DNA of 64,000 nucleotides from Haliotis asinina (lineage: Eukaryota; Mollusca; Gastropoda; Lepetellida; Haliotidae): contig NC_090281.1 of NCBI RefSeq assembly GCF_037392515.1, positions 43,128,645-43,192,644 on the forward strand, written 5' to 3'. The notes beneath the pieces are model-generated. The model did no database searches and was not told the origin of the DNA. It saw only the letters and a list, made by a program, of their open reading frames with translations. Each line of letters opens with the position of its first letter. The stretch's first letter is position 1. Of this stretch, positions 24,682 to 63,220 are shown piece after piece. The position numbers were made by a program, and so were the translations under genes.

Positions 24682-27600
24682 GTGGTGCGACTGCGAGTTT
24701 AACATTTCTATGAAACAAATTTTCCACTTTGGTCAGTTTGGATAGGACTAGGAGTTCCGCCCGTATTCGCTTAAAAAAAACCAGAATTACAAACTGACAT
24801 GTATACCTCACCCGAAATATACATTCAGTAAACTGGACAGATGTGAAAAACAATCACTGAACTTATCTCAGTCTACATTGTGAGAAAATTACGGAAGGGC
24901 TACTTGTGGAAATTTACTGTGTAAATTAGAGTGGGTTACGGGCGGAACTCTTTCCCTTACGAACTGCAATAGACGTTAGAGAATCAGAACCTAAAGCGAG
25001 AGCTAGACTTGTCACATTTAGAACAGAAGGGCATTGGTGATTGAGAAAATCAGAAGGTGGGTAACTGAAGCAGACAAAGTTATTAGTGGTGGTGATGATG
25101 ATTTTAATCAGTAAGATCCTTTGGTGAAAACTTTTCAAATGGAAAGCAAAATAAATAAAGAATATCAGAATGTGTTTCTACCACCTGAGGCATGGCAGTT
25201 ATTCTTCAGTTTATCAACTGTTTGATCAGCAGTTTGATCAGCAGATTGATCAGCAGTTTGATCAGCAGATTGATCAGCAGTTTGATCAGCAGTTTGATCA
25301 GTAGATTTGTCAGTTAACTTGTCTAATAACCAGTCATGGTGACAAAGCTTGGTTTGCTTTTCTGTTTCAGTGGCAAGGTTCTGAAGAAATGCACAGCATG
25401 TATGTTTCTGCACTACTGTTCCCGAACCTGTCAGGTAGGTAGGGTGTTTAAGGGGCACTGATCAAAACTAAATGTTTTTTCCTGCACTATTAGGCTGATA
25501 GAAGTCAATACATGCAATCAATATCTGGTGGTATGAAATTGGAGTTTTGCTCCTTGGTGTATACACTACTCTGTCATGCTTTGCTTTATGTCATACAAAA
25601 TATATTTTCATCTCTTAGCCCATGAGATTTGTAATGATACCATGAAGCTGAGATACAATACATACCCTGATAATATTTGCTGATTCATATTCCAATACAG
25701 TACTTATTTTTAAGAAGTGTATGTTCTCCTATTTTTGGCAAGCAAATCATGAACTGAAACACTTTTATGCCAGTATCAGATAGCAAAGATGAAATAAGCT
25801 TGATGTGCAGATTCTGCTGTTTATGGTGAACCACAAAATACTACGTTTTACATGAACATTACCGTATTTCCTTTATTAACATACTTCCAGACCTGGTGCT
25901 TATTAGAGACTTGGCCCGGCGCTAATTGTGCTTACCAAGTGTACAGTAATTGTTAGTTAGCGTTATGTCAGAGTTTTGAAAAGTTCCTTAATAAATCATA
26001 AATAATAAACATACCTTCCACTTATTGGAGACCTTGCGCCTATCGAAAGTCTGGGCTTTTTAGAGGAAATACGGTACTTATGATATAATGATTTGTGTGT
26101 ATTGCAATGCAGGAGTTTAAATATTCATGTATCATAAGCTTTATGTCTTTAGTTGCTTCTGACAATTACTACAGATATGTTTACACAGAAAACACCTACA
26201 CATATGAATATTATTAAGGAGTGTGATGCAATAGGGTAGCAGTCATAAATATTTTGAAAGACTGAACCCACTGAGTTTTTTTCAACAGAAGAATGATTGG
26301 CTGCTTCACAAAGATGAATGTCCATGTCTGAAGCGTGTTGCTCCAAGAATTCCAACAGACAGTGTGCGGTTGCTACTCCGACTTCTTATAAGGTTGCAGG
26401 TAAGCCCCTCTTTTGCTTGTCATGCCAGAGACCTGGGTTTGAATTCCCACATGGGTACAATGTGTAAAGCCCATTTCTGGTGTCCTTGGCTCTGATATTG
26501 CTGGAATATTGTAAATGCAGTGTAAAGCTAAATTCACTCATTCATTGCTGTGAGCATCCAGGAAAATTGCCAGGCCACAAAACCTTGTAGCACTGGTTTA
26601 CAAAAACACAGTAAGTATATCTTGATAAGAAAAGTCATAGGTATGGTATTTTAAATTTATTTTTATTTTTTCCAGTTTTCATGACATATTTCAATTATGA
26701 TCCAAGTGGTCTAGAATTGGTTACCTTTTATACTCTAGTCACATTGTTGACCTACGGATTGTTGGTTCTGACTTAATTATATGCAGATGAGTGTGGCGTT
26801 ATACTCAACTCACATTTTGTTTTTCATGGTTGTTATTATTGCAGCGTGGAGACAATCAGAAGGCAGTATGTGACAGTGCAAACTGGCGACCCTTTGAAGA
26901 GCTTGAAACACGTGAGTTACTGAGATTAGTGACACATGTAAGTCCCATGCTTGTTGTAAGAGATGACTGATGGGATTGGGAAGTCATGCTGGTTGACTTG
27001 ATTGGCCCTTGTCATTGTATCTCAGTTCTGAAGATTGATGCTCATGCTGTTGATCATTGGATTGCCTGGTCCAGACTCGATTTATTCCATTAGCTGGAAT
27101 ACTGAGGCTAAACCTGGCTGAGAAAGGATGAGATAAAATGTCACATGGATCCAAACAGGAGATTTTCTGCAAGCCTTATGAGATTTAATGGTTCATGATC
27201 GTTCAGAAGAAAAGGAATAAATGACAATCAACTTCAAGTCAACCAATCATGAATTATACAGATGACCAGGGTGTGATTTTAAATCGCTGCAGATAAATTT
27301 GAGCGTGATTTTATAGCAACTGATGTGAGAAAATTGTGAATTTTTTACTTACCTTACCATAGGTCTATAGCATATTACCTCAAGCTTAACAGGAGATCTG
27401 ACGGAGATGAATTGCATTCAAACTTGAATGGCTACCTCGCAATCACGACGTCAGGTTACGGAAGTATCTGGATCCCCTCACTGCGCATGCGCACTGATTC
27501 CTCGAAAGCTTACTTTTACTTCAAGCGTCGTCTGTGACAGACGGTTGTGGATTGCATAGAATTTTTTCTTGATCGAATAAAGTCGTAATTTTTTCGATAC

Positions 27601-30600
27601 TTGCTTGTTTTTTCCCAAGAGTTTTGCAACTGGTATGTATTCTTTCTGTCATTGTGTCGATTTTACATGTAATTGTAAAGTTTTACACGTGTGGGCTACC
27701 TTGCGTGACACATGTCATCATGTCTCAAATTTTTTCGTGCATTTACCTCCGTGTGTTTCTCGGATGGTTATTTGTTACGTTAATGCATTTATTTTCTTTC
27801 TTTGATGCCCTCCTCAGCCAGGATTATTCAATTTATTGCTTTGTGCAGCTAAGGTGATAGTCATTTCACTTGTCCATTGCACACGTGTAGCACGATGTGT
27901 GGCGCGGTTCATTTTGTGTTAGAGGGGTTTGTTTTCCACCGTTTTATCAGAGTGTTATTTCGTTTGTTGCAGCTGTTGTGTATGACACAACATTTTTGTC
28001 AGATTTGCAGAGTCGTAAATCCGGCAAGGATCCCCACGCTGTTTGTCCGGATTGTGCGGCGGTACCCTGCTCCTTAAGTCAGAGGTGCTCGGTTTGTGCG
28101 GACCTCTCTCCACAAGACTTCAAGACCTATTTAGCAGTCGTTAAAAAGAGAAGGTCTCAACAACTTAGGAAGATGTCCAGATCGCCAGTGTCATCGGCGG
28201 GCTCTAGACTGTCTCTTCCCGGCTCACCGGAGTATCTATCATCGGACTTCCCTTCGTCTTGTTTGGGAACGCCTGCTCTTCTGGGGGCATGTCAGAGGCC
28301 TGAGCCGTCGCAGGCGCCGAGGTCTGGTGCTGCGCCTGCTCCGTCATCTATCCAGCTTTCAGTGCCTACGCCTACGCCTTTGCCTTCCACCCAGGCAGGG
28401 GGTTGGGTTGATGTGATGAGGTCAGACGCCCTTGCTCATCCTGAAGTACAGAGGATTCTTAGGGCGTTACTGGTGCCTACCCCCGGATTATCGCCAAGCA
28501 CATCTAACGTGACACCGCTGATTGGCTCAACTCAGCTTGGATCGGACTTAACTTCGGCGCAGGGCAAAGATAGTGGTTGTGCGCCTGCGCCAGTGCTTAG
28601 TGGCGTATCCCAAGCCAGACCTGCTGTGAGCAGACCGTCGTCTGGATCGGAGGTGTTTGCTTTTGGTAACGCAAACAATGTGCCTTGGGATAGGAGATGT
28701 TCAGAGTTTTCTGGTGGTAGGAGATCGCGATCTAGGAGCCCTCGCAGTAGTTCATTGAGTGCTTGCAGACGCCGACGCTCAACGTCTAGATCGCCGGAGT
28801 GCCGTGGTAGATCAGGCTATCGTAGACACAGAGATAGCCAGTCTAGCTTTACGTCAGGATCGCCACGTCCTAGGCAGTCATCCTTCAGGAGGCGTACACC
28901 AGAGCGTAAGTCTACTGTGTTGTGGATGGCAGACGAAGAACAGTGTTTTTCCCCTGACTACGAGGAGGATCCTACACAGCTTGAGGATGATGAGGGATCC
29001 GTCTGGTGTTAACAATGACAAGGCTATTAGGATTGAGCCGGAACTGTTGATCCCGCCTCACCCGATGGTAGCAGATGCTATTTCTTCGCTCAACGAGGAC
29101 TTCACCAAGTTGTCACTAAATGCAACCATAAGGGCGCCTAAGGTTAAGAAACAGGATTATAAGATGCATGGATTGGATTTTGCTGATTTAGACGCAGGAC
29201 TGGACGAGGCTATCAAGAGGCTATCTTCGTCGACGTCCTATAAGGTGCAAGATTTGATGCTGCAAGCTATTGATGCTGAGTTGCGACGCAGTTTGAAGCC
29301 GATTTCGGCACAGGCTTCAGCCACTTCAGTGACAGCAGTAGATCTTACAGAGAATAACGAATCTAGACTGGAGCACTTGTCATCACACAAGAGAATCAGT
29401 AGTGGTCCGTCTACCCCGAGACGTATGTGGGAATTATTACACACTGGTGGTCCTCGGGAATCCGTCACCACCATCCAGGCTGTTGTATCCATATGCTATA
29501 GACCTATGGAAGGGTAAGTAAAAAATTTATTAAAATCTAAATATTTTAGATATTTAAATACTTACCTTACCATAGGACGTTATTCCCTCCCAACGCTGGA
29601 TGCTCCTCCCCACTTCGGATTCTTCGGACCGGGAAGTAAAAGTGAAGTTTTCGAGGAATCGGCGTGCATGCGCAGTGAGGAGATCCAGATACTTCCGTAT
29701 CCTGATGTCATGGTTGCGAGGTAGCCATTCAAGTTTGAATGCAATTCATCTCCGTCAGATCTCCTGTTAAGCGAAGCTTGAGGTAATATGCTATAGAACT
29801 ATGGTAAGGTAAGTATTTAAATATCTAAAATATTTAGATTTTAATAATGTTGTGGCCCAAGTCAATCTCTGCTCATTCACTCATACTCAACTGTAGGGAC
29901 ATACAGGGCAGTTGCTCACTGTCTTGACAGTTCTAATGGGTTGGTGCACTAATACACTGGAGACCAGGGCCTAGTTTTTCGACGCTTTCTTAGCGCTGAG
30001 ATAGTTGTACGTTAAGGTATGGCACTTACGACTATCTTTGTTCTAAGAGAGCTTTGAAAATCTAGGCACTGGTTCCATTTCCCACTGGGTACAGGGCCTA
30101 TTTCTGGTGTCCCCTTTGGATATTGCTGGAATATTAATAAAAATGGCATAAAACCAGACTCATTCACTTTGCAGAAAGAATTTTTATCTCAGTTGACCTT
30201 TTTCAACCTTCAGATTCTTGTGAAATCCTACAAGATGAAAAAAGAAGTGATCTGCTTGCCAAGGCCACCTTCACCTTAAGACAGATGGTGGGGGACTCTG
30301 TGTCGCTCCCTGAGGCAGGAGACATTTTGGATGTGTTCGGGAGGGTCAGTACTTCAACCAAGCTTAATGGCCACGAAATACAGTCTGTGCATGTTGAATT
30401 AATTATGTATTCCATGTCAAACTTTGATGTAATGTTTGTGTCAAAGAAGCGACCGTAAAATACACTCACCCACGAGTAGCCTCCCCTTTTTCTGAGTAAT
30501 GGGTCAGCTGTGACCACGCTTGTTACTCTCTTCTTATCGCCTGATGACGGTGCCTGGAGTTATATTGGGTCTCCACTACGGTGACTTTTCAACTGTTTCG

Positions 30601-33600: not shown

Positions 33601-36600
33601 CACATACCAGGAGCCTGCAACATCAAGGCAGACATCTTATCTCATCCTCTTCATCCATCACCAACAGAGTATATGCTGCATCGAGAGACATCTCAACAAA
33701 TCAGCTGAAGATTCAGATCACTCCAAATTGACTTACTTGCAACAAGGTTCAACTAACAGACAGCAACCTTTTGTGTCACCGGTACCAGATCTAACTTGGG
33801 CATCAGACGCTCTCGGCATCTCGTGGGAAGGACTAAACGCATCCGTGTTCCCCCCTCCAGTGCTGCTACCAAGAGTCATCAAGAAAATCAGACAGCTGCC
33901 AGGTCAACCGGACAGGCAGTTCCCCATACCAGCCTTGTCTTCAGTCCTTGGATCTGTTATACTGAGAGCCAAAAAAGCAGCAGGATTGGAACATCCACAA
34001 GCCTCCAACCCACATGAAGTTAGAGCCTTGGCCTCTACTCTAGCGCTACTTGGGAATTGCTCGCTATCAATTATAATGGAGGGCTTCTTTTGGAAGTTAA
34101 ACATGGTGTTTGCCAACCATTGCCTACAAGACATAGCCACGGAGGACATCGCTTGCATTCATCAGTTTGGGCCTCTTGTCACTGCTCGTGGAAAGTCCAT
34201 GCACATGTCTTAAACGGATTAGCAGGAGTGATTATGACCCTGTACTCGTAATGAAGATACTTGTACGTGGAGAGGGGTCAACTAGTCTGGATTACAATAT
34301 CTTGACAGTTAGTTCTAGCAGAAACTAGCAGGACCCTAGTTATTTCTGATGTCATCACAGTCCAGTCAACGAAGCCTTCTGCAGAAGACAAGTTTGACTG
34401 GATGTGATCCCCCACAATCTACAATGAATATTAGAAGAACAGGGCCAAATTATCGCCATTACAAGTTCCCTTTGGGGTGGGGGAATTATTGGACGTAATT
34501 TTGACAGCCAGCAGAATCCAGCGTGGCCTGACCCACTGCCGTTTCTGTCGGATTCTGCAAGCAATTAAGCATGAGTCAGGATAAGGAAAAATATGTAATC
34601 TACTGAATAAAATTGATATTTTATACTTGTCCTAACTCACAACGAAAGCCCTCCCTGCTGCCCCTCACAGGCATGCTGAATTCCTATAATTCTCGTGTCA
34701 GGTGTTTTACAGGGGCGAGTGACAAGCGTGGTTGGTCAGCTGGCCAATTACGCGGGAAAGGGGAGGCTACTCGTGGGTGAGTGTATTTTTTCCGTCTGCT
34801 TCTTTTAGAAGGGAACTTCAAGGGATTTCAGGTATTCCACTACCTTCGACAAGGAAGAGGAGATAAGCAATTAAGCATGAATTAGGATAAGTATAAAATA
34901 TCAATTTTATTCAGAAAATTACTTTGTCATTTATTGATGGCTTAATATACCTTACTGACCGTGAAAAATCAAACAAAGAAAGTTTAAGTGTACAATGGCA
35001 AATGAAAAGTGCAATATTTTATTTTGTTTCTTTACTTTGGTTTACTATGCTTGAAATGAAGCACCTGGGATACTGAACCAAGTAAGAGTTGGTGAGAGAC
35101 AAGTCAAGTGTAATGAAGATTTTCATTGGCTGTGGGTTTTTTTGTTATTTTTATACCTTCCAGGCTATTTGTTTACACTGTATAGCCTGATAGGTGTTAA
35201 GTTCAAATTGTATGAGGTCGATTCAGTTGTTTGTTGCATATTGACATCACATGTCAATAAAACAGACAGTGAGTTTTGTCTGTGACGTAGGCTGCTTGTC
35301 ACAGTCAGCATGTTTTTGTTTTTTTATGTCACAAGTAGTCTATTTACTTGTTTGTGTCCGCCAACTCCTGCTCATGACCCTATAATCTGGGCATCCTGCT
35401 TCAAATTGCTAGGATGTATTCACTGAGCATGTGCTATGTATCCAGTTAAAAACCACTTTTCACCCCACCTTGTTTTTCAACTATAGAAGTTGAATTTGCA
35501 TTTTTGATGATTTGTGACTAAGTCCATACTGAAAGGTGTCAGGGTCTGCAAAGTTGTGTTTTGCATAGCATGTAGGGTTTAACCCGTTTGCGTTGAAATG
35601 ATGTTGGTTGTTTAATTTCAGATGGTAATTAACACATTCTCAATCTGCGATGGTGAGATGCAGCCGATTGGGTCAGGAGTATATCTCAGGTGTGTGAACA
35701 TAATAGTTCCAGATACAATTTCTTGTGATTTTTCTTTTGTTAAAGTACTGGTTGTTTGTAACTGAATCACCAGCAAAACTGGAAGGAAATGCATCAGGTG
35801 CTGATTGTTATTTCCATTTTAGTTTAAGAGATATTCACACTTGCGTGGCCCTGTGCAGGAGGAGAGTGGTTACCTGGTGAGATAGGTTGTATGGCTATAA
35901 CCTTTTAGTGCCTCACAGATGGGTATTCGGGTAATATTAATGAGATTGGTAGGACATGGAGTTAGTTCGTGGTGCCATGGTATGTCTAGAGATGGACAAC
36001 CAGACAGCTCTGAGTTACATCCTGGAGCAAGGCTGCATTATGTCTTGTCACTCCTTTAGGAGACATTGCTGTTTCTACTGTGGTGCAGGCAATTCAATGT
36101 ACTGTTGATGTCAGTTTATCTCCAAGGAGTAGACAATTCATGCAGATGCTCTCTCAAGGCATATACTAGCCCCAGATGAGTGTACGCTCGATCAGAGGAT
36201 TTTCAGGATTATCCCTGTTGTTGGGGTCGTTCCAGGTGGATTTGTTTGCCTGTAGAGTGACGAACCAGATACTGATGTTTTGCTCTCAGATTCCGGATCC
36301 AGTGGAGAAAACAAACGCTTTTCAGCTTGATTGAATAGACAGGGTGTTCCCACTGATACGTTATTTCCAAGGTCCTATCACAGCCAGCTGCTCAACCAAT
36401 TTGACTTCTTGTGCTCCTGGCACCTCTGTGGTTGGCTCTAAGTTGGGATTTGACCGGAACTACTATGCCAGATTGGGTGGGCAATTCGAGCATGCATTAT
36501 ACATGGAGAAATGCACATCATAATGCAATAGTAATTTAGACTGCCATGGAAACTCATTTTTTGTACTATTCTTGTCTTCTTTTGAACAGAAAAAATCTGG

Positions 36601-39600
36601 TAACCAATCAGAAAGGAATGTATGGTCTGCTATATGTGTTGTTATAATTCTTATTGTTTTTGCAGCCCCTCACTGTTAGACCACAGCTGTGTCCCTAATG
36701 CTGTTGCTGTGTTCACTGGGACAACCCTCTCAGTCAGGTGTCTGACAGATATACCTGGTGACCAGCCCACACAAGTAAGTGTCCCTCCCTCACATGCATT
36801 TCATCACCTGTGAAGATCTTGTTTAGAATTGATCTTCAGTATCCCATTCTTGTTGTAAGAGGTAACTGATGGGACTTGCTTGACTCATGATATCATATCT
36901 CAGTTGGATTGTCCATACTTGATTGTTTACAGACTGCTGCCATATGGCTGGAATATTGCTGAGTGCAACAACCGACCAACAAACATTTCATTTGTATCAC
37001 AAATAATACCAACTTGGCAGTATGTCTGGAGGTAGTAAACAGTAAAATATACTAGTCCTGTCTGATCTTGGATGGTCCAGGACAAAGTTATTAAGATGAT
37101 TCCTAATTAGTTTCTCTTTGTCTTGTATGTACTATTTCTGCAAGAATATTTACAATAAATGAAGACAAAATTGCAGGTTAATTTATGAAAAATTTGAAAG
37201 TACCTATTGAAAAATAGTTGGATGGTAAACACATCTGTTAGTGAGAAAATTGGCTGAAGTAGAGCCACTGGACTAACACTTGCTATTTACGACCAATACT
37301 GGCCATATGTCGTCTGTTTGGGAGAGAGTGAGTTTAGTTTTACAACGCCTTTAGCAATATTCCAGGTATATGGCAGAAGTCTAAATGATCGAGTCTGAAC
37401 CAGACAATCCAGTGATAACAGCAGGAGTATTGATCTGTTTGATTGGAAACCAATTATGTGTCAACAAAGTCAGTGAGCCTGACCACCTGATCGCCTCTTA
37501 CAACAAGCATAGTCGACTTTTATGGAAAACATTGATTACTGAAGTCCTATTCTACCAATCTTCACGGGTCTCCTCAGTTTGCAGCACATTCACAAACAGA
37601 TGTTAGGTCAGCCACTCTGTCCAATATATAGAAGCTGTTGGTCCATTTGGTGTCAGGTCCATCATGTTGTCTCATTGACTTTCCACATTTAATGACTACA
37701 CCCTTTCACTTATGAGTTGCAGTCTCTGGCAAATTATTCTATGTATTCACAGCAGGATTTGGGATTGAGTAGTTTGGTCTGTTATCACTGTGCCATTTCA
37801 TCTGCATTATTTTTCCTTATCCTGACTCATGTTTAATTGCTTATCTCCTCTTTCCGGATGAAGGTAGTGGAATACCTGAAATCCTTTGAGGTAGGCTTCT
37901 AAAAGGAGCATACGTAAAATGCACTCACCCACGAGTAGCCTCCCTTTACACGCACACATGGTCAGCTAATCGGCCATGATTGTCACCCTCTTCCTATAAT
38001 GAGGGCGTCTGGAGGCACCTGGGGTCCCTGATACGGCAATAAGTTCTTCAGTTATTTTGGTCCTTTAACTAAATTTATGTTGTATGTGGTATTTGGCTTC
38101 GTATATGCATCATATTTTATCAATTTTGTGATTATTGTGTCTTTATTTAGCATGTATTTCATCAAGCGAGATTTAGTCTCAGTTGATGAAATAGTGTCTA
38201 CAGTGTAGATTACAGCTGTCAGCAGTTGACCTGCACTTAGTTTACCCAGGGTGTAAGCCCATATGTTCTTCTGATAGTAGTAAATTTTGCAGCAATTTAT
38301 CTGATTCAGAATTTACTTTATATACTCGGCCTGTTTACAGACGTGTGAGGGACAGGCAATGTCGGCTTACATTAGCCATGTCTGAAGTGGGTGAATTGAA
38401 TTCGGATAACCGTTTATCTGTTTCTGCTGAGATTCATTCCAGTGGTATGTCTGGCGTTTCTCCAGATCATATCTGGGGTCCAGCGAGTCGTCCCCTAAAC
38501 CACAGAAGAGATCTTCTTTAGAGACAGGGCCGTCGCAGTCTAGGAAGTCTAGATTGTTGAACACCAAGTCCTCTTCTTCCAAATCATTGCAGAATCAACA
38601 TTCTTCAATGAAGGAATCGTTTGGGGAAGAGATCGTCCCTCTGCACGAATGACACATCTTCGACGAGCCACCGTTGATTCTATGCAGCGAGCAAGATATC
38701 AAGCAACATAGTCAATGTGCATCGTCGTCTAGATCGACCCCCCGAGGGCATCATCAACGCCTCAGACTTTGTCAGCAACATCGGTCATCGCAGCAGACGA
38801 CTCTAGAACTCAGCCATCACTACACTCAACGTAGTCGTTCGACACAGGCGCCTTTCTGCAGCAGCTTACGACGCAGATGATTAGCTTAATGGAGTGGTGG
38901 TTTGATGAAGAAAGAGAACTGCATTCGTCAACAATGTCATCTAGATCTGCACTCACACCTGAAGATGAAGAGGAGGCATATGCACACACCCGCACGAGAT
39001 CGTCACCAGAGTCCGTCATCTTGCCGCAGTCCAGAGAGAAATCCACCCACGCCGATTGAGTGCACCCGCACGAGTGGTTATACTTGTGCGAGTAAGGATT
39101 CTCACTTGCGCGGGTGCACTAGCGGGTATACTCGTCAATGCAGAAGACCTTCCTCTGTCTCCCCAGCTCATCAAAGGCGCTGTCAGCAGTCATCATCCCC
39201 TTCAGACTTGGACTCACATAAGAGGGATTGTCGGCATACAGTGAATGTGTTGCACTCTCAGAGGGAAGATCGATACTGCCAAGCATCATCGCCAGAGGAA
39301 GGTCTCTTTTCAGACTGTGAAGTCACATCATTGATCACGAATGGCTTCTACTTAGTCTCACCATTCAAGGACTCCAACGAAGTTAATACTTATAAGATGA
39401 AGAATGACGACATCAATACGCTAACGTTCCCGCCGATAGCTCCGATTTCTACAATTCCTGAGATTTTATCTACAGTGTTCAAGTCAGCAACCAAGTTTCA
39501 TCAACAACATGTGCCGTCCTTCAACGTCCTTCAACACTTGTCGTTTCCCTCTTCATCGCATGGAGCCCTTCATCAGAGCACCAGATGTAGACGAAGCATA

Positions 39601-42600: not shown

Positions 42601-45600
42601 CTGACCATGTGCGCGGGTACAGGGAGGCAACTCGTGGGTAAGTGTATTTTTTGCGTCCACTTCTTTTAGAAGGGAACTTAAAGGGATTTCAGGTATTCCA
42701 CTACCTTCTCCAGGGAAGAAGAGATAAGCAATTAAGCATGAGTCAGGATAAGTATAAAATGTCAATTTTATTCAGAAAATTACAATTTGTCCTTTACAGG
42801 TGCTTATCAGTTACATCGACCAGCTAGCGCCCTCTTGTGAGCGGAGGAAACAACTCAAGGAGCAGTACTACTTCACATGTCAGTGTCGAAGATGCACAGA
42901 GGCAGACATGGTAGGTGAAAGTAGGTTGATTTTGTAGCAGGATAAGGGGTGCTACGGTTTCAAAGACGACCAGTGCCTGCTGGGGTGTGAGTTGTGTCTT
43001 CTGCCATAAGTTTTTTGTGCTCAGATATATATTTTGGTTTTCTTTCCTTTTCACTGAGATAAATGATGCTCAGGTGATGGTGTGCAGCATCTACCTCAAT
43101 GATACAGCATTTCTGTCTTAAACACAGAGCACTGGTAGATGAGCAGGGAGCAGAAATCAGCTGTCCGTCCGTCCGTCATGTCATATGTACAAGGTGCTCC
43201 TAGACTATCTAAAATGTGCTGATGATTGTAAAGAATAAAACAGACAACTTAAAACCGGCCAGTCAGAGTTTAAAGAATAACTTGCCCTCTAAGTTGAGAA
43301 CAAAAGAATTGTTCTCCCACAGTAGAGCAAGGACCATCTTGGGGTAATGAAGCTGGAGATAAATATCATACTTACTGTAATAAAATCCTACTCCAATAAA
43401 TTCTACCACAACCAAACTCTTTAAAAATGATACCCTATTTACACAAATAAATAAAATGTGAAAATATGACTCTACCTCTTCTGTCATTGTCTTAACGCTT
43501 GCATTCATGGCCCGAACAATGCTGCATAAAACAACGTTTGCTCACCATGTTTCTCTGGTTCCACTTTTTCCCCATTTTCCCTGATGTCATCCTACTACAG
43601 CTGATCTTTTTCTGCTTTTTATGCAACATGCAAATGTGCTCTCTGTACGCCCAATGAAGAGGAAGGACACATTAAAAATAATCACCTCTTCAAAAATGCA
43701 CAATATTATTTATTGAATGCACAGCTGATGTATGACTTTCCTCGTGTTTTGTTGTTTCTTCCAGGACAGTTACGTGCATTGTTTCATCCACTAGTCAACA
43801 TGATCCATGATTCATTCCAGGCTTTAAAGAAGTTATCAAAACATACATTTCTGTACACTTTTCCTTCACAGGACCAACATATTCCCTACAAGGGCCATTA
43901 AATTCCCCGGACTCCAATGTTTATGAGTCAAGATGCCTTGATATTACTTGAATCGAACCGTATCACTTCATGAAATCAAGAAAGAGACTTTCGCTTGTCA
44001 TGTCGGACACCGAATTCGATTCCCCAGATGGGTACAGTGTGTGAAGCTCATTTCTGGTGTCCCTTGCCATGATATTTCTGCAATATTGCTGAGAGTGGCG
44101 TAAAATAATACTCCCAGACATGTCTTCATGAACTGTGGAATCTTCGTGTCCTTGTACTGTGGGCATGTGCAGAACCTTCATATTGCCACCTCAAGGGCCA
44201 AGGTGCCGTTGTCTTCGACAGCATATCAACTTAGTTTTGTGATTTTCAGCACTTAACAGTGCGAGAAACATTTTATTGTGGGTTCAAATTTCAGATCTGC
44301 CAGATTTGTAACTAGGGGTGAAGTGGTATGCCTTGCCATGGTTCAGTATGTGTCTCAGTTTGCTACAATGCGGTGTGGTTCATTAACAATAGAATTAGGA
44401 TGAACATTTTGTGGAAAGGCACTGTTGGTTTGGTTAAAGTTCTGAGCAAAAATCCTCTTAGAATTGGAACCCAAACGAAAGTGCCTTATTACACGATCTC
44501 TTTCATCCAATCGAAGTAACATGAGTTGTTGACAATAGCGGCACAGAGACGTCAGAAACTGTAGCTACATGAAGATTTCACCTAGAATTATATTACATGG
44601 AATATTTGTGATGTGCATACAGTAAGAAGATACTTTTGGTACCAAACACACCATATTTTCAGAGTGAATTTTGGTGTATTGAACCGAAAACCCAATACCA
44701 CGGTATGAATACACCACAGTATGCTGCTCCATCCCAATTTGTTACATGAACTGTCTGCTAGCAATTCACAGAAGAGGTGACCAGGAGGCTGCCATGCTGT
44801 GGCATTACTGAAATACTACACAGATGGTCAGATAATGCTACATTGTTCATTGTCATGTAGTTAATATCCATTGAATGTGTTGAGTATCACATTTATTTCT
44901 ACTTTTGAAACAGCTGTTGTTTTCTCAACAATTGCTTTGAGTTTTTTCAATTTATTCCATAGGGATTTGTTTTACTATGCATAGTTAATAATTGACCTGG
45001 TTGTGTGAATCATATTTATCCCAGTCTGTTCCATACTGTAGTACTTGTGGAACAAGTATCAGTTTCCCAGACCTAGACGGAAGTTATGAATACACTATGC
45101 CTTTTGGAAAGTAGTCAAATATCCTTTATATTTGGGTTGAGACTTTCTTAGTAATTCACAATTTTTTCTGTATCCTGACTCATGCTTATTTGCTTGTCTC
45201 CCTCTTCTATCCAAAGTTTTATTGGAAACTTGAAATCCCTTGAAGTTCCCTTCTTCAAAAGAGGACATAAATCATACTCTCCCGTGTATACCCTCCCTTT
45301 CCTCCATATTTGGAGCCAATAGTGGTCACATGACAAGCCATATTTGTCATTCTCTCCTTCACCCATCAGGAATGTTGTGTGGGTGACTTGGGGTCCCTAT
45401 ACGGCACATATCTCTTGTTTATTTTGGTCTTTAATCCAAATTTTGCTGTATAGGGTTTTTAGTGTGTGTATTTAATTGTATGATGTTAAACTTTTGTGTA
45501 TAAATTACCTATTTTACACGTGTTTGCAACTTGTAACTATGGTTCATAGTTTGTTTACATGTTGATGAAAATTTGTTGATACCGGTTGTCAGTGTTCGAT

Positions 45601-60600: not shown

Positions 60601-63220
60601 AATGCACTTCTATAAGGATCATCAGTTATCATGTACAGTGACATGTCATCTACGAAGAGATGTATATTACTTTCGATTCCATCAGCTATGTCATTAGTGT
60701 ATGCTAAGAATAGAAGAGGCCCGTGAACTCATCCTTGGGGAACTCTGGCTATTATCGGTTTGGATTCTGATTTTTTTACCATGAATAGCTACTCTCTGCT
60801 TTCGATATTGTAGATAACTTTCAAACCATTTCAATAATGTTCCGCCTATTCCACAGGATTTAAGCTTGTGAATAATTTCTTTGTGCCAAACTTTATCAAA
60901 TGCCTTGCTTATATCGCAGAATACAGCTCTAACTTCCTTTCCGTTATCTATGGCTTTAGCAATAAAATTATGCAAATGTGTAAGTGGATATGCTGGTGAA
61001 TCTCCTGGAATAAATCAAGATTGTAAGTTTGAAAGGAGCTTATTATCTGTCATGAAATTAAAAACGTATTTAAATACACATTTTTCAAAGACTTTTGATA
61101 AGCAAGATGTCAAGGTAACCGGTCTATAATTACAACGGTCTTTAACAAATGATTCTTTCCATGTACCTGGGAAGACTGATGTTTGGAGTGACTTGTCAAA
61201 AAGATGAGTTATTTGGTAGAGACTGTTATGCTGTTATGAGTATGGTACGTCAGTTATGTCACCATCTGTTGAATATACAGTACACTAGCAGGAGCTTTAC
61301 ATATTTGGGATTGCAGTGATTTTACCAAAAACTACATACTGTACCTGGACATGGTTGGAAGTATAATTTGTTTGGAGGTTTTCTTAAAAGTTTTAAGTGA
61401 CCATACATGTCCTAGTAATACACAGTGGGCCCTTACTATTCATCTATCAAGCAAGCTTACTTACTTTTTCAATGAACTGTTGCTGTAAATCATAGAATCA
61501 GAATGGAAATGTTTGTGTATATGCATTTCAGGAAAATATAATACTTATGATACTGTGATTATGCTTGTAAGAGGCAAAGGGATCGGGTGGCCAGGCTTGC
61601 TGACTTGGTTGACATATGTCATTGGTTCCCAGTTGTGCAAATGGTGGGAGTTTCAGCATGTAACAGATTATGTGATGGTGTATGTTTCAGGATAGTGTGA
61701 TGTCATGTAACAGATTATGTGATGGTGTATGTTTCAGGATAGTGTGATGTCATGTAACGGATTATGTGATGGTGTATGTTTCAGGATAGTGTGATGTCAT
61801 GTAACAGATTATGTGATGGTGTATGTTTCAGGATAATGTGATGTCATGTAACAGATTATGTGATGGTGTATGTTTCAGGATAGTGTGATGTCATGTAACA
61901 GATTATGTGATGGTGTATGTTTCAGGATGGGCTGATACCATGTAACAGATTATGTGATGGTGTATGTTTCAGGATGGGCTGATGCTGGGTGCAGCCTGTC
62001 AACAGAGAGGTTGTGATGGCACCCTCATGTATGATGGTAGGTGATACAGTTACTTCACCACTACTTCTACAGCATCTTGGCTCAGTGTTTGTCATGGGCA
62101 GCCGTGGCTGATAGACGTCCTTGTGTTTTTCTTACAAGTGCTGATATTTGTGTCTGATGTTGTCATGTTGATGATGGGTGGGTGGTAACCAGTGATTATG
62201 CAGAATTCCCAACTTAAATGTTGAATGTTGAAGTATCTCTGTGATCTGCTAGTGTCATCTTTTATGGTTTTACACTGACTTATCATTTTGTGATATAATT
62301 GGACCAATGCTTGGTGCTTTTTAGCTTTTTTCATGAAAGAACTTTCTCAGAAACCACTGAAGTTACTTGAATGAAAGGGAATAATGATAACACTGTGTTT
62401 TCTCTGATGTCAGATGGTTTGAATGCTGCTGACCAGTGTAAAACTATCACACCCTTTGTTGCTTTGATTGCGTTGACACATTACCTTTTGTTGATTACAG
62501 GTAAAACCTTCTTGGCCTGCCAGACCTGTCAGTCCAGGAGCAGTGACGAGGCATACAGGTTAAAGGTGCAGACAGTGATGGAGGAGTCCCAGACAGCACT
62601 GAAGACACTGGACCACCTGAAGACATCTGGAGGTGCGATATACAGACAAATCAGTTGTTGACAAGTTGACAGTGCCTGTCACAGACTCCTGACAGTGTTG
62701 AGGTCAGAGATGGATTGGTTCGATAGACCATTAGTCCTGGGTTTGAACCCAGATTTGCCATAGTTGTGATGCTTGTGAGTTGCAAGAAAGTGGTAAATGA
62801 CTGACAGTTGCTGCACACACAATGTGCTGAAAGGTTTAGTCATATCCGAGATTGCCCTGAGTAGGTTTATTGTTTCCACCACAGTGATAAAGCTCTCAAC
62901 TGCTAATTAGGTTTATTGTTTCCAGCACAGTGATAAAGCTTTCAACTGCTAATTAGCACAAGGGTAATGACCTCAAACTTGTCCATAAAATAACATTTTC
63001 AAGCTAATGTGGTAATGTTTATGGGTAGCCTGTTCTCTTGAGCTACAGATCCTGAGACCAGGCTGCAAGTCTGCAAGGAACTGCTGAGGAAGCAGAGAGT
63101 TCTCTCCCCTTTCAATGTGTACTATGTGAAGACACTGGACCAAGCAATGGATGTCTGCATTGACAGCCAACAGTGGGAACAGGCAGTAGACTTTGGTCAG
63201 CAAACTGTGCAGCCATATGT
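24555..63220 (+). CDS. SMYD3: SMYD3-like SET/MYND lysine methyltransferase, 11 exons, 3' end outside window
   Basis: Eleven exons with GT/AG borders and consistent phases encode about 385 residues. They run in family order: N-terminal SET strand, MYND zinc finger (CDSC, CTAC, YCSRTC, HKDEC), the 'PRIPTDSVRLL' linker, SET core ('FSICDGEMQPIGSGVY', 'LLDHSCVPN', 'LISYID'), post-SET cysteines (CQCRRC), an extra Cys-rich segment, and the start of the helical TPR-like C-terminal domain. Family members transfer methyl groups from S-adenosylmethionine to lysines of histone and cytoplasmic proteins. The ICDGEMQPIG block points to SMYD3 rather than SMYD1 or SMYD2. Human SMYD3 has 428 residues; here about 40-100 are beyond the window. 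Odd points are the uncertain exon 1 frame, Asp in place of Asn in 'NHSC', and introns filled with retrotransposons. Exons are listed separately. Confidence 0.88.
24682..25370. other. SMYD3-like intron 1
   Basis: Contains the 12-bp tandem array at 25217-25307. Otherwise nothing recognised. Confidence 0.5.
25217..25307. repeat. 12-bp tandem repeat, about 8 copies
   Basis: The unit is TTTGATCAGCAG, alternating with ATTGATCAGCAG. Each unit holds the palindrome TGATCA. The array ends about 60 bp before the exon 2 acceptor. Confidence 0.9.
25371..25434 (+). CDS. SMYD3: SMYD3-like exon 2 (MYND centre)
   Basis: The exon follows TTTCTGTTTCAG and ends before GTAGGT. It encodes 'GKVLKKCTAC' and 'MFLHYCSRTCQ', the second and third zinc-ligand sets of the MYND finger. 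Its phase fits exon 1's donor (AC + T = Thr). Confidence 0.95.
26289..26399 (+). CDS. SMYD3: SMYD3-like exon 3
   Basis: 37 codons, phase 0 at both ends, with acceptor CAACAG and donor GTAAGC. It encodes 'KNDWLLHKDECPCLKRVAP', the last MYND His and Cys, then 'RIPTDSVRLLLRLLIRLQ', the family's linker helix. Confidence 0.95.
26405..26547 (+). repeat. Abalone-type SINE (5' part missing)
   Basis: A B-box-like GGGTTTGAATTCCCAC is followed by 'acatgggtacaatgtgtaa', 'agcccatttctggtgtcc' and 'tattgctggaatattg', with an ACTCATTCATT tail. It starts within a few bases of the exon 3 donor. Confidence 0.75.
26845..26911 (+). CDS. SMYD3: SMYD3-like exon 4
   Basis: The acceptor TTATTGCAG and donor GTGAGT are good. 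22 codons plus one base: 'RGDNQKAVCDSANWRPFEEL'. This is the variable helical insert between MYND and the SET core. Confidence 0.9.
26938..27130 (-). repeat. Dispersed GAGTGAGTTTAG-family repeat, reverse copy
   Basis: The reverse complement shows the family's blocks in order: 'tccagactcgatttattcc', 'gattgcctggtccagac', 'gatgctcatgctgttgatca', 'cccatgcttgttgtaagag'. Both ends are worn. Confidence 0.65.
27339..27522 (+). repeat. Left inverted terminal repeat of the gag-only DIRS element
   Basis: Reads CTTACCTTACCATAGG...GATGAATTGCATTCAAACTT and matches the reverse complement of 29634-29846 with scattered differences. Confidence 0.85.
29491..29575. repeat. Internal complementary region of the gag-only DIRS element
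   Basis: ATGCTATAGACCTATGG...GGTAAGTAAAAAATT complements the left terminus. TAAAATCTAAATATTTTAG through CCATAG complements the right terminus. Joined in this way, the region could template the fusion of the two ends in the circular DNA intermediate known for DIRS elements. Confidence 0.8.
29634..29846 (-). repeat. Right inverted terminal repeat of the gag-only DIRS element
   Basis: The inverse of 27339-27522, plus an outer AT-rich segment (TAAATATCTAAAATATTTAG) not shared with the left end but present, inverted, in the internal complementary region. Confidence 0.85.
29967..30066. repeat. Palindromic MITE inserted in a SINE
   Basis: About 100 bp. The left arm, GCCTAGTTTTTCGACGCTTT CTTAG, is the near reverse complement of the right arm (CTAAGAGAGCTTTGAAAATC TAGGC). 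Adjacent inner arms with GATAGT and ACTATC also pair. It sits between the 'gagacc' and 'ggttcc' parts of a SINE B-box region that resumes at 30067. A related arm is at 7007. Confidence 0.65.
30067..30168 (+). repeat. Abalone-type SINE, 3' part
   Basis: 'GGTTCCATTTCCCACTGGGT', 'gcctatttctggtgtcccc' and 'ggatattgctggaatatt', with an ACTCATTCAC tail, match the SINE body at 57012-57182. Confidence 0.65.
30214..30344 (+). CDS. SMYD3: SMYD3-like exon 5
   Basis: Acceptor ACCTTCAG, donor GTCAGT. The first two bases complete a His codon with exon 4. It then encodes 'SCEILQDEKRSDLLAKATF' and 'LPEAGDILDVFGR', the helical segment before the SET core in SMYD proteins. Phase 0 at the end. Confidence 0.92.
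30442..34923 (+). mobile_element. DIRS-type retrotransposon, degraded (intron 5)
   Basis: About 4.5 kb. The left inverted repeat lacks its outermost part and begins near the shared block 'CTCACCCACGAGTAGCCTCC'. The right inverted repeat (about 34655-34923) contains its complement and ends 'caattttattcagaaaatta'. An internal complementary region at about 34555-34650 joins the reverse complements of both termini. Interior remnants include an RNase H-like stretch near 33430-33700 (DNSTVAFYIN-like, 'HIPGACNIKAD') and a tyrosine-recombinase piece near 33960-34200 (HEVRALAS, then YLRD-like). Fossil with many interruptions. It shares a family with 37808-42784 and 45157-50957. Confidence 0.8.
34940..35590 (+). 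repeat. Dispersed repeat, sister copy of 55162-55786
   Basis: Blocks shared in order with 55162-55786: 'aaaagtgcaatattttatt', 'gtctgtgacgtaggctgctt', 'tatttacttgtttgtgtcc', 'ctataatctgggcatcctgc', 'tcaactatagaagttgaatt', 'aggtgtcagggtctgcaaag' and 'ttgtgttttgcatagcatg'. Terminal repeats are worn in this copy. It ends about 30 bp before exon 6. Confidence 0.6.
35622..35689 (+). CDS. SMYD3: SMYD3-like exon 6 (SET core)
   Basis: Acceptor TTTAATTTCAG, donor GTGTGT. Encodes 'MVINTFSICDGEMQPIGSGV YL', the SET segment most specific to SMYD3. Ends in phase 2. Confidence 0.96.
36050..36490 (+). mobile_element. DIRS-like RNase H region scrap (intron 6)
   Basis: Pieces in more than one frame resemble the RNase H to recombinase linker of DIRS-type elements: an 'ADALSRHILAPDE'-like block near 36155, a 'VDLFACR'-like block near 36240 and a 'NAFQLD'-like block near 36310. 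The match pattern differs from the three long copies here, so it is probably another lineage. Very degraded and without ends. Confidence 0.45.
36666..36774 (+). CDS. SMYD3: SMYD3-like exon 7 (SAM-site SET motif)
   Basis: Acceptor TTTTTGCAG, donor GTAAGT. Encodes 'SPSLLDHSCVPNAVAVFTG' and then 'TTLSVRCLTDIPGDQPTQ'. It aligns with the SET motif 'LLNHSCxPN'. The usual Asn before His is Asp here. Phase 0 at the end. Confidence 0.95.
36835..36990 (-). repeat. Dispersed GAGTGAGTTTAG-family repeat, reverse copy
   Basis: Reverse complement carries 'gcaatattccagccatatgg', 'cagtctgtaaacaatc' and 'cccatcagttacctctta' blocks of the family. Internal deletions. Confidence 0.55.
37325..37575 (+). repeat. 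Dispersed GAGTGAGTTTAG-family repeat, best copy
   Basis: The most complete copy in the window. It runs from GAGAGAGTGAGTTTAGTTTT through 'agcaatattccaggtatatg', 'gaaccagacaatccagtgat', 'cagtgagcctgaccacctga' and 'caagcatagtcgacttttat' to 'cttcacgggtctcc'. Confidence 0.75.
37808..42784 (+). mobile_element. DIRS-type retrotransposon, degraded (intron 7)
   Basis: About 5 kb with inverted termini. The left end reads TTTTTCCTTATCCTGACTCA. The right end contains the complement GAGTCAGGATAAGTATAAAA and finishes 'attttattcagaaaattac'. Interior parts in order: an N-terminal Ser/Arg-rich gag-like block (38400-39300), a central block, an RNase H block at 40549-40905 ('IHTDNSTVAFYINKQGS', 'IPGACNIKAD', 'QIDLFATRFN'), and a tyrosine recombinase block at about 41840-42200 ('SNPHEVRALAS' and 'YLRDIA'). 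Fossil with many interruptions. It ends about 15 bases before the exon 8 acceptor. Confidence 0.85.
42800..42910 (+). CDS. SMYD3: SMYD3-like exon 8 (SET end and post-SET)
   Basis: 37 codons, phase 0 at both ends. Acceptor TCCTTTACAG, donor GTAGGT. Encodes 'VLISYIDQLAPSCERRKQ', the Tyr-containing end of SET, then 'YYFTCQCRRCTEADM', whose CxCxxC is the post-SET zinc site. The branch-point region upstream is supplied largely by the right terminus of the DIRS element. Confidence 0.96.
42911..43964. other. SMYD3-like intron 8, left part
   Basis: No exon, RNA gene or repeat recognised. Confidence 0.4.
43965..44115 (+). repeat. Abalone-type SINE, partial
   Basis: 'cgaattcgattccccagatg' (B-box-like), 'gggtacagtgtgtgaagctc' and 'catttctggtgtcccttgcc' are followed by 'gagagtggcgtaaaataata'. 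The A-box head is lost. Confidence 0.65.
44116..45156. other. SMYD3-like intron 8, no feature seen
   Basis: AT-rich, no coding motif or recognised repeat. Confidence 0.4.
45157..50957 (+). mobile_element. DIRS-type retrotransposon, degraded, with a nested DNA transposon (intron 8)
   Basis: The left terminus TTTTTTCTGTATCCTGACTC and the right terminus (GAGTCAGGATATGAATATGG, then 'caattttattcagaaaatta') are the same as in the copies at 30442 and 37808. Interior remnants are a gag-like part (about 45830-46440), a reverse-transcriptase block near 47490 ('DLQDAYLHVPIHPQS'), and an RNase H block near 48130-48300 ('VHTDNFTVASCINKQGS', then 'HIPGAKN'). The recombinase and most of the right inverted repeat are missing. 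Many interruptions; older than the Gypsy element. It is itself cut by the insertion at 48537-50359. Confidence 0.78.
48537..50359. mobile_element. DNA transposon, about 1.8 kb, nested in the DIRS element
   Basis: Ends are inverted: AAGGGGCACTGATGCAGAGC on the left, and the complement of AGGGGCACTGATGCGGAGCG on the right. The DIRS sequence reads straight through the empty site ('ccggcatta' then 'atacctc'), with TA or TAA duplicated. A TA/TAA target and GGGGCACTG ends suggest the PIF/Harbinger-ISL2EU or mariner range, but no transposase motif was recognised, so it is probably non-autonomous. A 98-codon minus-strand frame at 50075-50371 lies at one end ('TKPNHKLVSTRSFDHDGQR'); its origin is unknown. 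Confidence 0.7.
50958..51692 (-). other. Downstream flank / likely 3' UTR of the TRIM-NHL gene
   Basis: No coding motif. The nearest minus-strand AATAAA (plus TTTATT) that I noticed is at about 50939, inside the right end of the DIRS fossil. The gene may therefore use a polyadenylation signal from that element, which is inference. Confidence 0.3.
51693..53825 (-). CDS. TRIM-NHL E3 ubiquitin ligase, intronless
   Basis: One uninterrupted 710-residue frame; start ATG has A at -3. The RING finger is at residues 11-58 (C11, C14, C26, H28, C31, C34, C55, C58; E2 binding). B-box 1 is at about 97-137 and B-box 2 at about 153-188. A coiled coil at about 195-300 serves dimerisation. An acidic linker (DLSDDDDEANDH, near 400-410) precedes six NHL repeats at about 436-704, which form a beta-propeller that binds RNA or protein partners. 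No filamin domain separates coiled coil and propeller, unlike TRIM2, TRIM3 and TRIM71. The architecture is closer to TRIM32, but with two B-boxes. No orthologue name is assigned. It lies antisense inside intron 8 of the SMYD3-like gene. Being intronless, it may be an old retrocopy that kept its function, or a member of the many single-exon TRIM-NHL genes of molluscs. Confidence 0.93.
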   Translation of the reverse strand: MQNPIQELLQCAVCLGTVTHPRVLPCFHSFCESCLATHIRTTTGVSRFRPRKFNCPSCRISTDLPPGGTDAFPRDFRLIQFTDALKTIVNLKKEGLCGICCTEEYFRSAQQFCADCQKYFCNDCSLKHRVTPVLSHHFMLDLPVDGQGAGPSCHTHPKESAKYVCSTCTLPVCVICVMGQHKFHNIAHLNPSSSLQRTELHESMSHIREQIWSTHETLFNLTCLEGKLKGLFEESRLQIKKRSRKLINRILADEGQLLKELEAIYDTKCSEVFKMKEKCRKKLSSCETLQSQIGTLLRADDLHELLIKYPTLSEELEKIRHPSDLLNSQTLLTFVKFRPGHFKLGKLLEVEVKDGRSTGVPQEAILDTSDSNNSGVEPDAQTFIPTSLTNVADTDDRLDLSDDDDEANDHGLLMRTGTSATPDSNLDLPYKTPLQLRSVFGSYGRSMGNMCLPYNICFTADDKLVVAENGNRRLQVFNIDGESIEFIGSGEIIPRCVTQTPSGDLAVTDELSKTIKVYDSGGNLKLTLNPVGATFPFGLATSQTGLFIFTDMIFENVSIVTASGILKRQFGSHGCTQDRFDNPGYIAVSQYSNIFISDSSNHAIKVFDMNGTFLYKFGCYGTNDGRLRYPKAICFDIFGNIFIADSGNDRVVLFSSTGQYLGVVVDKDQGLKRPTGLSYSSQGCLAVSMPDINEIRVYHLVSQPYPDVRL
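53826..55161. other. 5' flank of the TRIM gene, then intronic DNA
   Basis: A CRE-like TGACGTC occurs at about 53877, about 50 bp upstream of the TRIM start on the minus strand, and could be a promoter element. No other gene or repeat recognised. Confidence 0.35.
55162..55786. mobile_element. Non-autonomous DNA transposon with AAAGGTCA termini
   Basis: About 625 bp. The left end AAAGGTCACATGCAACC pairs with the complement of the right end (TGAAAGGTCAAATGCAAC). No transposase. Interior blocks recur in order at 34940-35590. A target duplication was not clear. Confidence 0.6.
55787..57011. other. Intronic, no feature seen
   Basis: AT-rich DNA in intron 8; nothing recognised. Confidence 0.4.
57012..57182 (+). 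repeat. Abalone-type SINE, complete
   Basis: A-box-like GGTGGGGTAGCCTTGTGG, B-box GGTTCGATTCC, body 'acatgggtacaatatgtgaa', 'gcccatttctgctgtcccc', 'tgttgctggaatattgct', 'ggtgtggaactaaactc' and tail AATCACTCACTCAT. The best full-length copy of this family in the window. Confidence 0.85.
57216..57260. repeat. 15-bp tandem repeat, three copies
   Basis: TGTATCTGATGATAG three times in a row without a mismatch, followed by a degraded fourth. Confidence 0.95.
57261..58244. other. Intronic, no feature seen
   Basis: No coding motif or repeat recognised. Confidence 0.4.
58245..58430 (-). repeat. Dispersed GAGTGAGTTTAG-family repeat, reverse copy
   Basis: Reverse complement shows 'ggttcgtagataaccaagtc', 'tggaccagacaatctaaagg', and 'cagcctcctctggcaacctc'-type blocks in family order. 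Strongly diverged. Confidence 0.45.
58431..59559. other. Intronic, no feature seen
   Basis: AT-rich; nothing recognised. Confidence 0.4.
59560..61210 (-). mobile_element. 5'-truncated LINE (jockey/CR1-like group)
   Basis: Minus-strand order: RT core 'AVFCDISKAFDKVWH' at about 60910, 'GIGGTLLKWFESYLQYRKQR' near 60810, then 'DDMSLYMITDD' near 60640. A 'WVETWEAKFNPNKSQTIQFS' thumb lies near 60540. The C-terminal region is at 59729-60034 ('YNLRN', 'LFLPDTVRLWNTLP', 'HSHLRLGCSD'), running on past a stop to a Cys-rich tail ('CSCSHVSEDAF', 'FFTYPKY') near 59640. The endonuclease end is missing and a few stops and frameshifts interrupt it. It lies in SMYD3 intron 8, antisense. Confidence 0.85.
61656..61972 (+). 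repeat. 47-bp tandem repeat carrying seven splice-acceptor copies
   Basis: Units end in TGTATGTTTCAG at 61690, 61737, 61784, 61831, 61878, 61925 and 61972. The spacing is exactly 47 bp. Only the last copy is followed by an open SMYD3 exon. The copy at 61925 is followed by GATGGGCTGAT, the first bases of the true exon 9, so the array grew from the intron-exon border. Confidence 0.95.
61973..62036 (+). CDS. SMYD3: SMYD3-like exon 9 (extra Cys-rich segment)
   Basis: Donor GTAGGT. Encodes 'DGLMLGAACQQRGCDGTLMY D'. Phase 1 at the end. It follows the post-SET site and supplies two cysteines of a probable extra zinc site completed by exon 10. Confidence 0.9.
62501..62632 (+). CDS. SMYD3: SMYD3-like exon 10
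   Basis: Acceptor TTGATTACAG, donor GTGCGA. Encodes 'KTFLACQTCQSRSSDEAYRL', whose CxxC completes the Cys-rich segment, then a helix 'QTALKTLDHLKTSG'. Phase 1 in and out. Confidence 0.9.
63049..63220 (+). CDS. SMYD3: SMYD3-like exon 11 (start of TPR-like domain)
   Basis: Acceptor GAGCTACAG, donor GTAAGT, phase 2 at the end. Encodes 'LLRKQRVLSPFNVYYVKTLD' and 'QAMDVCIDSQQWEQAVDFG', matching the family's C-terminal helical repeats (compare 'LDCAMDACINLGLLEEALFYG' region in human SMYD3). The next exon lies outside the window. Confidence 0.93.

Follow-up and report, generated by a model that had tools for sequence, protein, structure and literature searches.

The 64,000-nucleotide window analysed here (Haliotis asinina, contig NC_090281.1, positions 43,128,645 to 43,192,644 of the forward strand) carries an SMYD3-like gene in which the 3' splice site of exon 9 is present in seven tandem copies, one in each unit of a 47-bp array that straddles the border between intron 8 and the exon. 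Judged from the sequence, this array is best regarded, with a probability of about 0.55, as a tolerated border-spanning minisatellite that leaves the reading frame intact, the last acceptor (opening the exon at 61973) serving most transcripts and some leaking to the upstream decoys, where they would be lost to decay.

The earlier note on this DNA had placed seven tandem copies of the acceptor at 61656-61972. Tandem Repeats Finder (TRF) called a repeat at 61657-61975 with a period of 47, 6.8 copies and 96% matches, and reading by hand gave seven head-to-tail units on the forward strand at 61657-61985, so that the array itself was confirmed, whereas its limits moved to a start at 61657 and an end at 61985, which takes in the copy forming the head of exon 9. 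Each unit consists of 34 intronic nucleotides, ending GTATGTTTCAG, and a 13-nt part that opens with GAT. It thereby joins a putative branch point (UAAC, counted as 27 nt upstream of the AG in every unit), the TGTATGTTTCAG in which the 34-nt part ends and an intact or degraded copy of the exon head; the junctions read AG/GATAGT, AG/GATAAT or AG/GATGGG, the slash marking the border. The acceptor cores (20+3 nt) are a single identical sequence in 7/7 units, which upholds the proposal of seven equivalent acceptors at the level of sequence. Seven columns vary among the units, and within the 34-nt intronic part one base differs, in one unit. The 13-nt part of units 1-5 is GATAGTGTGATGT or a one-base variant of it, and its match to the exon head is 12/13 bases in unit 6, 9/13 in units 1, 2, 3 and 5, and 8/13 in unit 4. 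Immediately 5' of unit 1, a possible degenerate half-unit agrees with the last 18 bases of the unit at 13 positions, a level attained by none of the intron's 389 other 18-mers that end in CAG; a match over the full 34 nt is unremarkable there (4/389 equal it) and the acceptor score is low.

The array belongs to a single locus. Six Egg_lysin (PF01303) matches in the genome, together with an exon region that has egg-lysin matches in the PDB (best E 3.9e-11), indicate an abalone. In the 1.14-Gb abalone genome, searched with up to 3 mismatches, the 34-nt part gave no match outside this locus and 7/7 matches within it, and a 445-bp query returned, beyond the locus, just two weak hits, located in a CAT-rich repeat; we therefore rejected a dispersed repeat or transposon as the source of the unit. 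Reverse-transcriptase-like open frames, recognized by eye, lie on the reverse strand at 60180-61233 and end about 420 bp 5' of the array. A special RNA fold that would hide the acceptors was likewise discarded, since the 390-nt stretch 61657-62046 is less stable than most shuffled versions (z +1.56; 94 of 100 shuffles at least as stable). Nor are these tandem acceptors of the NAGNAG type, in which the competing AGs are separated by 3 nt or little more: here the spacing is 47 nt and every unit has its own upstream signals.

Of the seven acceptors, only the one before 61973 preserves the reading frame from exon 8 into exon 10. The six upstream acceptors add 47 to 282 nt and each meets a TGA after 18 codons, in agreement with the earlier expectation that decoy use would shift the frame and reach a stop within about 20 codons. 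The accompanying argument that 47 is not a multiple of three is true and adds little weight, as this has a 2-in-3 chance of arising anyway. Skipping exon 9 likewise breaks the frame. The decoy TGAs lie 54-289 nt before the exon 9/10 junction, and under the usual 50-55 nt rule all six decoy transcripts would count as targets of nonsense-mediated decay, because a further exon follows exon 10. A matrix built from eight further acceptors of this gene gives the array acceptor a score of 8.9, or 5.8-10.1 when only seven of them are used, and gives the eight themselves 1.9-11.9 under leave-one-out scoring; among 1062 intronic AGs, 9 do as well as the array acceptor.

The host gene is SMYD3-like on the evidence of its predicted protein. 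The exon borders were placed by frame, splice consensus and homology, and the nine exons found in the window give one open frame of 285 amino acids, with an intron 8 of 19 kb. The joined exons have SMYD3 as their best match among solved structures in the PDB (E 2.7e-47), followed by SMYD2 (7.4e-35) and SMYD1 (8e-31), and they encode a MYND finger (PF01753 in Pfam, E 3.6e-9) and the post-SET cysteines. Against an SMYD3 identity counts the C-terminal 156-residue piece, which by itself places SMYD2 slightly ahead of SMYD3 (2.8e-12 vs 2.9e-11). With the joined exons as query, Pfam at E 0.001 does not return the SET domain PF00856, and none of 54 SET matches genome-wide falls at this locus; the SET region is split over exons, yet it aligns with SMYD3. 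The alignment also runs across the border after the acceptor of 61973, past the post-SET cysteines (DGLMLG vs DADMLT). The exon that follows exon 10 was matched separately, by its protein. The label exon 9, taken over from the earlier note, holds only if the model lacks exactly one 5' exon, and such an exon was looked for and not found. Among the best candidates scored, no retrocopy showing the spliced junction appeared, all four reported protein matches being exons of this gene. Exons 9-10 (61973-62632) encode a cysteine-rich stretch (CQQRGC ... CQTC) that lies outside the best-aligned stretches of the PDB SMYD matches.

The earlier note further held that the array was born at the exon border, citing the unit before the true exon as a repeat of its first bases. 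The correspondence extends, more weakly, to the other upstream units: a match of at least 9/13 to the exon head, as in four of them, occurs at 0.1% of intron positions and at 1/389 positions after CAG, so that an origin at the border is probable. The four differences that units 1-5 share against the exon are all confined to the 13-nt part (P 0.004 under an even spread), and the intron side is less variable than the exon side (1/34 vs 6/13 columns, p 0.001). A likely cause is that exchange keeps the units alike as far as the AG, and that any change entering the coding copy is purged. Two other arrays, at a kinase and a cytochrome P450 exon (described below), do not show this pattern (11/20 vs 27/46 and 9/20 vs 15/41 columns, respectively, the columns not being independent), and we make no claim that selection keeps the decoy acceptors. 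As for chance, 22 TRF rows in the window merge into 16 tandem arrays that make up 2.3% of its length; random placement would cover 0.43 of 19 gene borders, and one was observed (the exon 11 acceptor border among the 19 being a guess). The repeat itself thus exceeds chance and its position does not. Since any array that covers a border puts that border into every unit, the geometry alone does not prove function.

Arrays of this kind recur. Three more were found at the acceptors of coding exons, in a GRK2/3-like kinase, a cytochrome P450 and another kinase, and in all four genes the conserved exon is opened by the 3'-most copy. The GRK2/3-like exon (GRK3 match, E 2.6e-38; 9.3 TRF copies) has seven decoys: each of the first six leads to a stop after 31 codons, and the last is out of frame. 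At the P450 exon, whose best match is CYP4B1 (E 4.1e-16), three decoys lead to a stop, and the other two stay open in frame as far as the last acceptor, retaining 63 and 126 nt. All five decoys of the other kinase stop, in a phase that rests on the kinase frame, an upstream exon having been looked for and not found; four of its six copies read AG/GTAA, so that acceptor and donor coincide and recursive splicing would be possible. Mean pairwise unit identity is 0.79 in the P450 array and 0.85 in that of the second kinase. The persistence of such arrays in three other genes, with well-diverged units in two, suggests that decoys cost little.

The frequency of such arrays was gauged from two samples. 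The control sample held 60 conserved-exon loci (30 of 138 Pkinase and 30 of 107 RRM matches), several of them from tandem gene clusters and not independent. Arrays with units of at least 20 bp occur within 450 bp 5' of the match at four of these loci (L045, L051, L061 with 2.0 copies and L080 with 1.9 copies; orientation is doubtful for two loci), and an acceptor array at the exon was established for 1/60, the second kinase above (L051), the borders of L045, L061 and L080 not having been inspected. The L045 array ends about 365 bp upstream, and a script found no acceptor-like stretch in its unit. Arrays downstream of the match occur at four control loci. The second sample comprised ten arrays on C1, hand-picked from about 14 non-dispersed ones among about 100 places listed by a genome-wide pattern search. 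Two open into conserved exons, those of the GRK2/3-like kinase (L085) and the P450 (L087); six (L086, L088, L090, L091, L093 and L094) show no coding exon by eye, with no homology search run; L092 is cut inside the array and L089 is repetitive to its end. As L085 was picked because it adjoins a known kinase match, the fairer count is 1/9, with two of the nine undecided.

Genome-wide, three TTTCAGG motifs at gaps of 28-58 nt gave 2500 matches against 894 for the reversed control, and TTTCAGGAT gave 180 against 107, compared with 730 against 732 for the donor pattern AGGTAAGT. The acceptor bias is only suggestive, as the counts are of matches rather than arrays and large arrays dominate them. 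Seven more TTTCAGGAT arrays were noted in G000, at C1:99166900-99167396, C3:82447416-82450230, C4:20415897-20415987, C4:22332756-22332996, C4:55766862-55767070, C5:45414948-45415136 and C6:42955825-42956267. A broader speculation, which we hold with little confidence, is that duplication across 3' splice sites recurs at many conserved exons, where the arrays could act as knobs of expression or isoform choice if copy number varies, and in some, such as the kinase with AG/GTAA copies, could permit recursive splicing.

How the array arose and is read can be pictured as follows. The array would have begun with the duplication of 47 bp across the border, 34 nt intronic and 13 nt exonic, and unequal exchange would then have expanded and homogenized it, until every copy resembled a complete 3' splice site. 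By exon definition, the 3'-most copy, which stands beside the real 64-nt exon and its donor, probably serves most transcripts; some would take a decoy, stop after the 18 codons and probably be destroyed by nonsense-mediated decay. The array would be tolerated since, after any duplication at an acceptor, the exon still adjoins a correct copy, and we infer dominant use of the site before 61973 because unit 7 alone keeps the frame, the SMYD3 alignment continues past it and diverged arrays persist elsewhere. In vitro splicing of duplicated 3' splice sites to the distal site only is in line with this account (PMC5389562). Several observations weigh against it: those same duplicates spliced very inefficiently (PMC5389562); a minigene library (human contexts, acceptors 2-59 nt apart) found no order preference between equal acceptors, which predicts much decoy use here (PMC6783452); the published precedents have two acceptors, as against seven copies; and the pyrimidine fraction of the array acceptor, 0.56, is the lowest of the nine compared (others 0.61-0.78).

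That library result, together with the seven identical cores, the early stop from every decoy and a human precedent, the ABCA7 repeat, whose length tracks splicing and expression (PMC5954066), would also suit a dosage tuner, in line with the competition and the tuning by copy number that the earlier note had suggested: the seven acceptors would compete nearly equally, about 1/7 of transcripts would be productive and copy number would set expression. We consider this unlikely: the last copy alone adjoins a real exon and donor, and a sevenfold drop in output would probably carry a cost, which fits poorly with the eight identical acceptors of the GRK2/3-like gene and with the survival of diverged arrays in two genes. 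Less likely again is a splicing brake, whereby several U2AF or U2 complexes on the array would slow spliceosome assembly and transcripts would be lost through delay or intron retention instead of decoys. A separate UAAC does stand 27 nt upstream of the AG in every unit, and two acceptors on one RNA can be co-occupied, double occupancy inhibiting splicing (PMC5389562); that precedent, however, concerns two copies, and the branch points here are candidates.

The decoys themselves might contribute protein, either through a 36-nt microexon that keeps the frame (12 codons, for example DSVMSCNRLCDG) and runs from an acceptor to the GTATGT in the next unit or through an in-frame extension. None of the six decoys meets a stop within the 36 nt, and the P450 array has its two stop-free decoys. 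The donor-like site scores 2.7, though, a value equalled by 151/1213 intronic GTs, and the intron left between the microexon and unit 7 would measure 58-246 nt for units 1-5 and 11 nt, too short, for unit 6; we rate this very improbable. Slimmer still is the chance of an assembly error, with a wrong copy number or an artefactual array: tandem arrays are hard to assemble, but the units differ at seven columns and the same geometry occurs, with other units, at three other genes. The tolerated minisatellite with a dominant last acceptor is thus the reading that we retain.

Table. Coordinates of the inferred exons, the array units and the related arrays (positions in the window unless a locus is given)
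Feature	Position	Strand	Remark
Upstream exon, first part of MYND finger found	25371..25434	+	inferred borders
Upstream exon, second part of MYND finger	26289..26399	+	inferred borders
Upstream exon	26845..26911	+	inferred borders
Upstream exon	30214..30344	+	inferred borders
Upstream exon, SET region	35622..35689	+	inferred borders
Upstream exon, DHSCVPN, SET region	36666..36774	+	inferred borders
Exon 8, post-SET cysteines CQCRRC	42800..42910	+	ends in phase 0 at ATG/gtaggt
Possible degenerate half-unit 5' of unit 1	61639..61656	+	13/18 bases vs the unit's last 18
Array unit 1	61657..61703	+	decoy acceptor, AG at 61689-61690
Array unit 2	61704..61750	+	decoy acceptor before 61738
Array unit 3	61751..61797	+	decoy acceptor before 61785; A>G at unit position 9
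Array unit 4	61798..61844	+	decoy acceptor before 61832; G>A in exon-like part
Array unit 5	61845..61891	+	decoy acceptor before 61879
Array unit 6	61892..61938	+	decoy acceptor before 61926; exon-like part 12/13 vs true exon head
Array unit 7	61939..61985	+	34 nt of intron, frame-keeping acceptor 61971-61972 and first 13 nt of exon 9
Exon 9, 64 nt	61973..62036	+	donor ATG/gtaggt
Exon 10	62501..62632	+	inferred borders
L085, GRK2/3-like exon	G000:C1:76510800-76511900	-	eight identical acceptors, 58 bp apart, including 35 nt of exon head
L087, P450 exon	G000:C1:86586180-86586980		six diverged acceptors, 55-63 bp apart
L051, kinase exon	G000:C4, L051 1034-1404		six acceptors at a spacing of about 65 bp; kinase frame opened by the last

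Two further features of the gene's introns were noted in the window. Intron 8 harbours, on the reverse strand at 51693-53888, an open frame of 731 amino acids with the look, by eye, of a RING/B-box/NHL (TRIM-type) protein, and intron 10 holds 2.1 copies of a 46-bp unit at 62862-62956.

Tandem arrays across a splice junction are already known. Among the papers that our searches of the open-licence literature listed, none dealt with tandem acceptor arrays in molluscs, and neither sevenfold or eightfold identical acceptors nor their recurrence in one genome was met there. In the array described here each tandem unit carries the splice site of the adjacent coding exon, a feature that it shares with the variable number tandem repeats (VNTRs) that span a splice junction, of the ABCA7 and FAM20C kind. 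Like the human ABCA7 intron 18 VNTR, it is a minisatellite at a coding exon border whose unit carries a splice site and is not a multiple of three (25 bp there), and retention of one unit in ABCA7 leads to a frameshift and early stop; the ABCA7 repeat differs in lying on the donor side, in its longer arrays (about 12 to 427 units) and in having measured length polymorphism and RNA effects (PMC5954066). Another human tandem array that crosses an intron-exon junction is reported to affect alternative splicing. The array also resembles intron gain by tandem genomic duplication, in that a tandem duplication copies splice signals, but there an exonic AGGT segment gives rise to a new intron, whereas here an existing acceptor was multiplied (PMC3443670, PMC2891723). 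Intron gain of the AGGT type was rejected for the SMYD3-like array, as its AG/GAT unit junctions hold no donor; the kinase array with AG/GTAA in 4/6 copies comes closer to it.

The nearest experimental counterparts are the duplicated beta-globin acceptors, in which an upstream copy with 14, 55 or 205 nt of exon led to use of the distal site only, poor splicing and double U2AF occupancy. These share with the array identical tandem acceptors and a short exon head upstream (13 nt here, 14 nt there), but differ in being artificial, of two copies and in vitro; the same source cites an earlier report that the length of the upstream exon piece affects site choice (PMC5389562). The two published tests of identical acceptors disagree (PMC6783452 vs PMC5389562). 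In the literature searched, spliceosome choice between identical acceptors has been studied with artificial pairs, whereas the abalone genome offers natural sets of seven and eight in conserved genes, to which diverged acceptor arrays in two further genes can be added.

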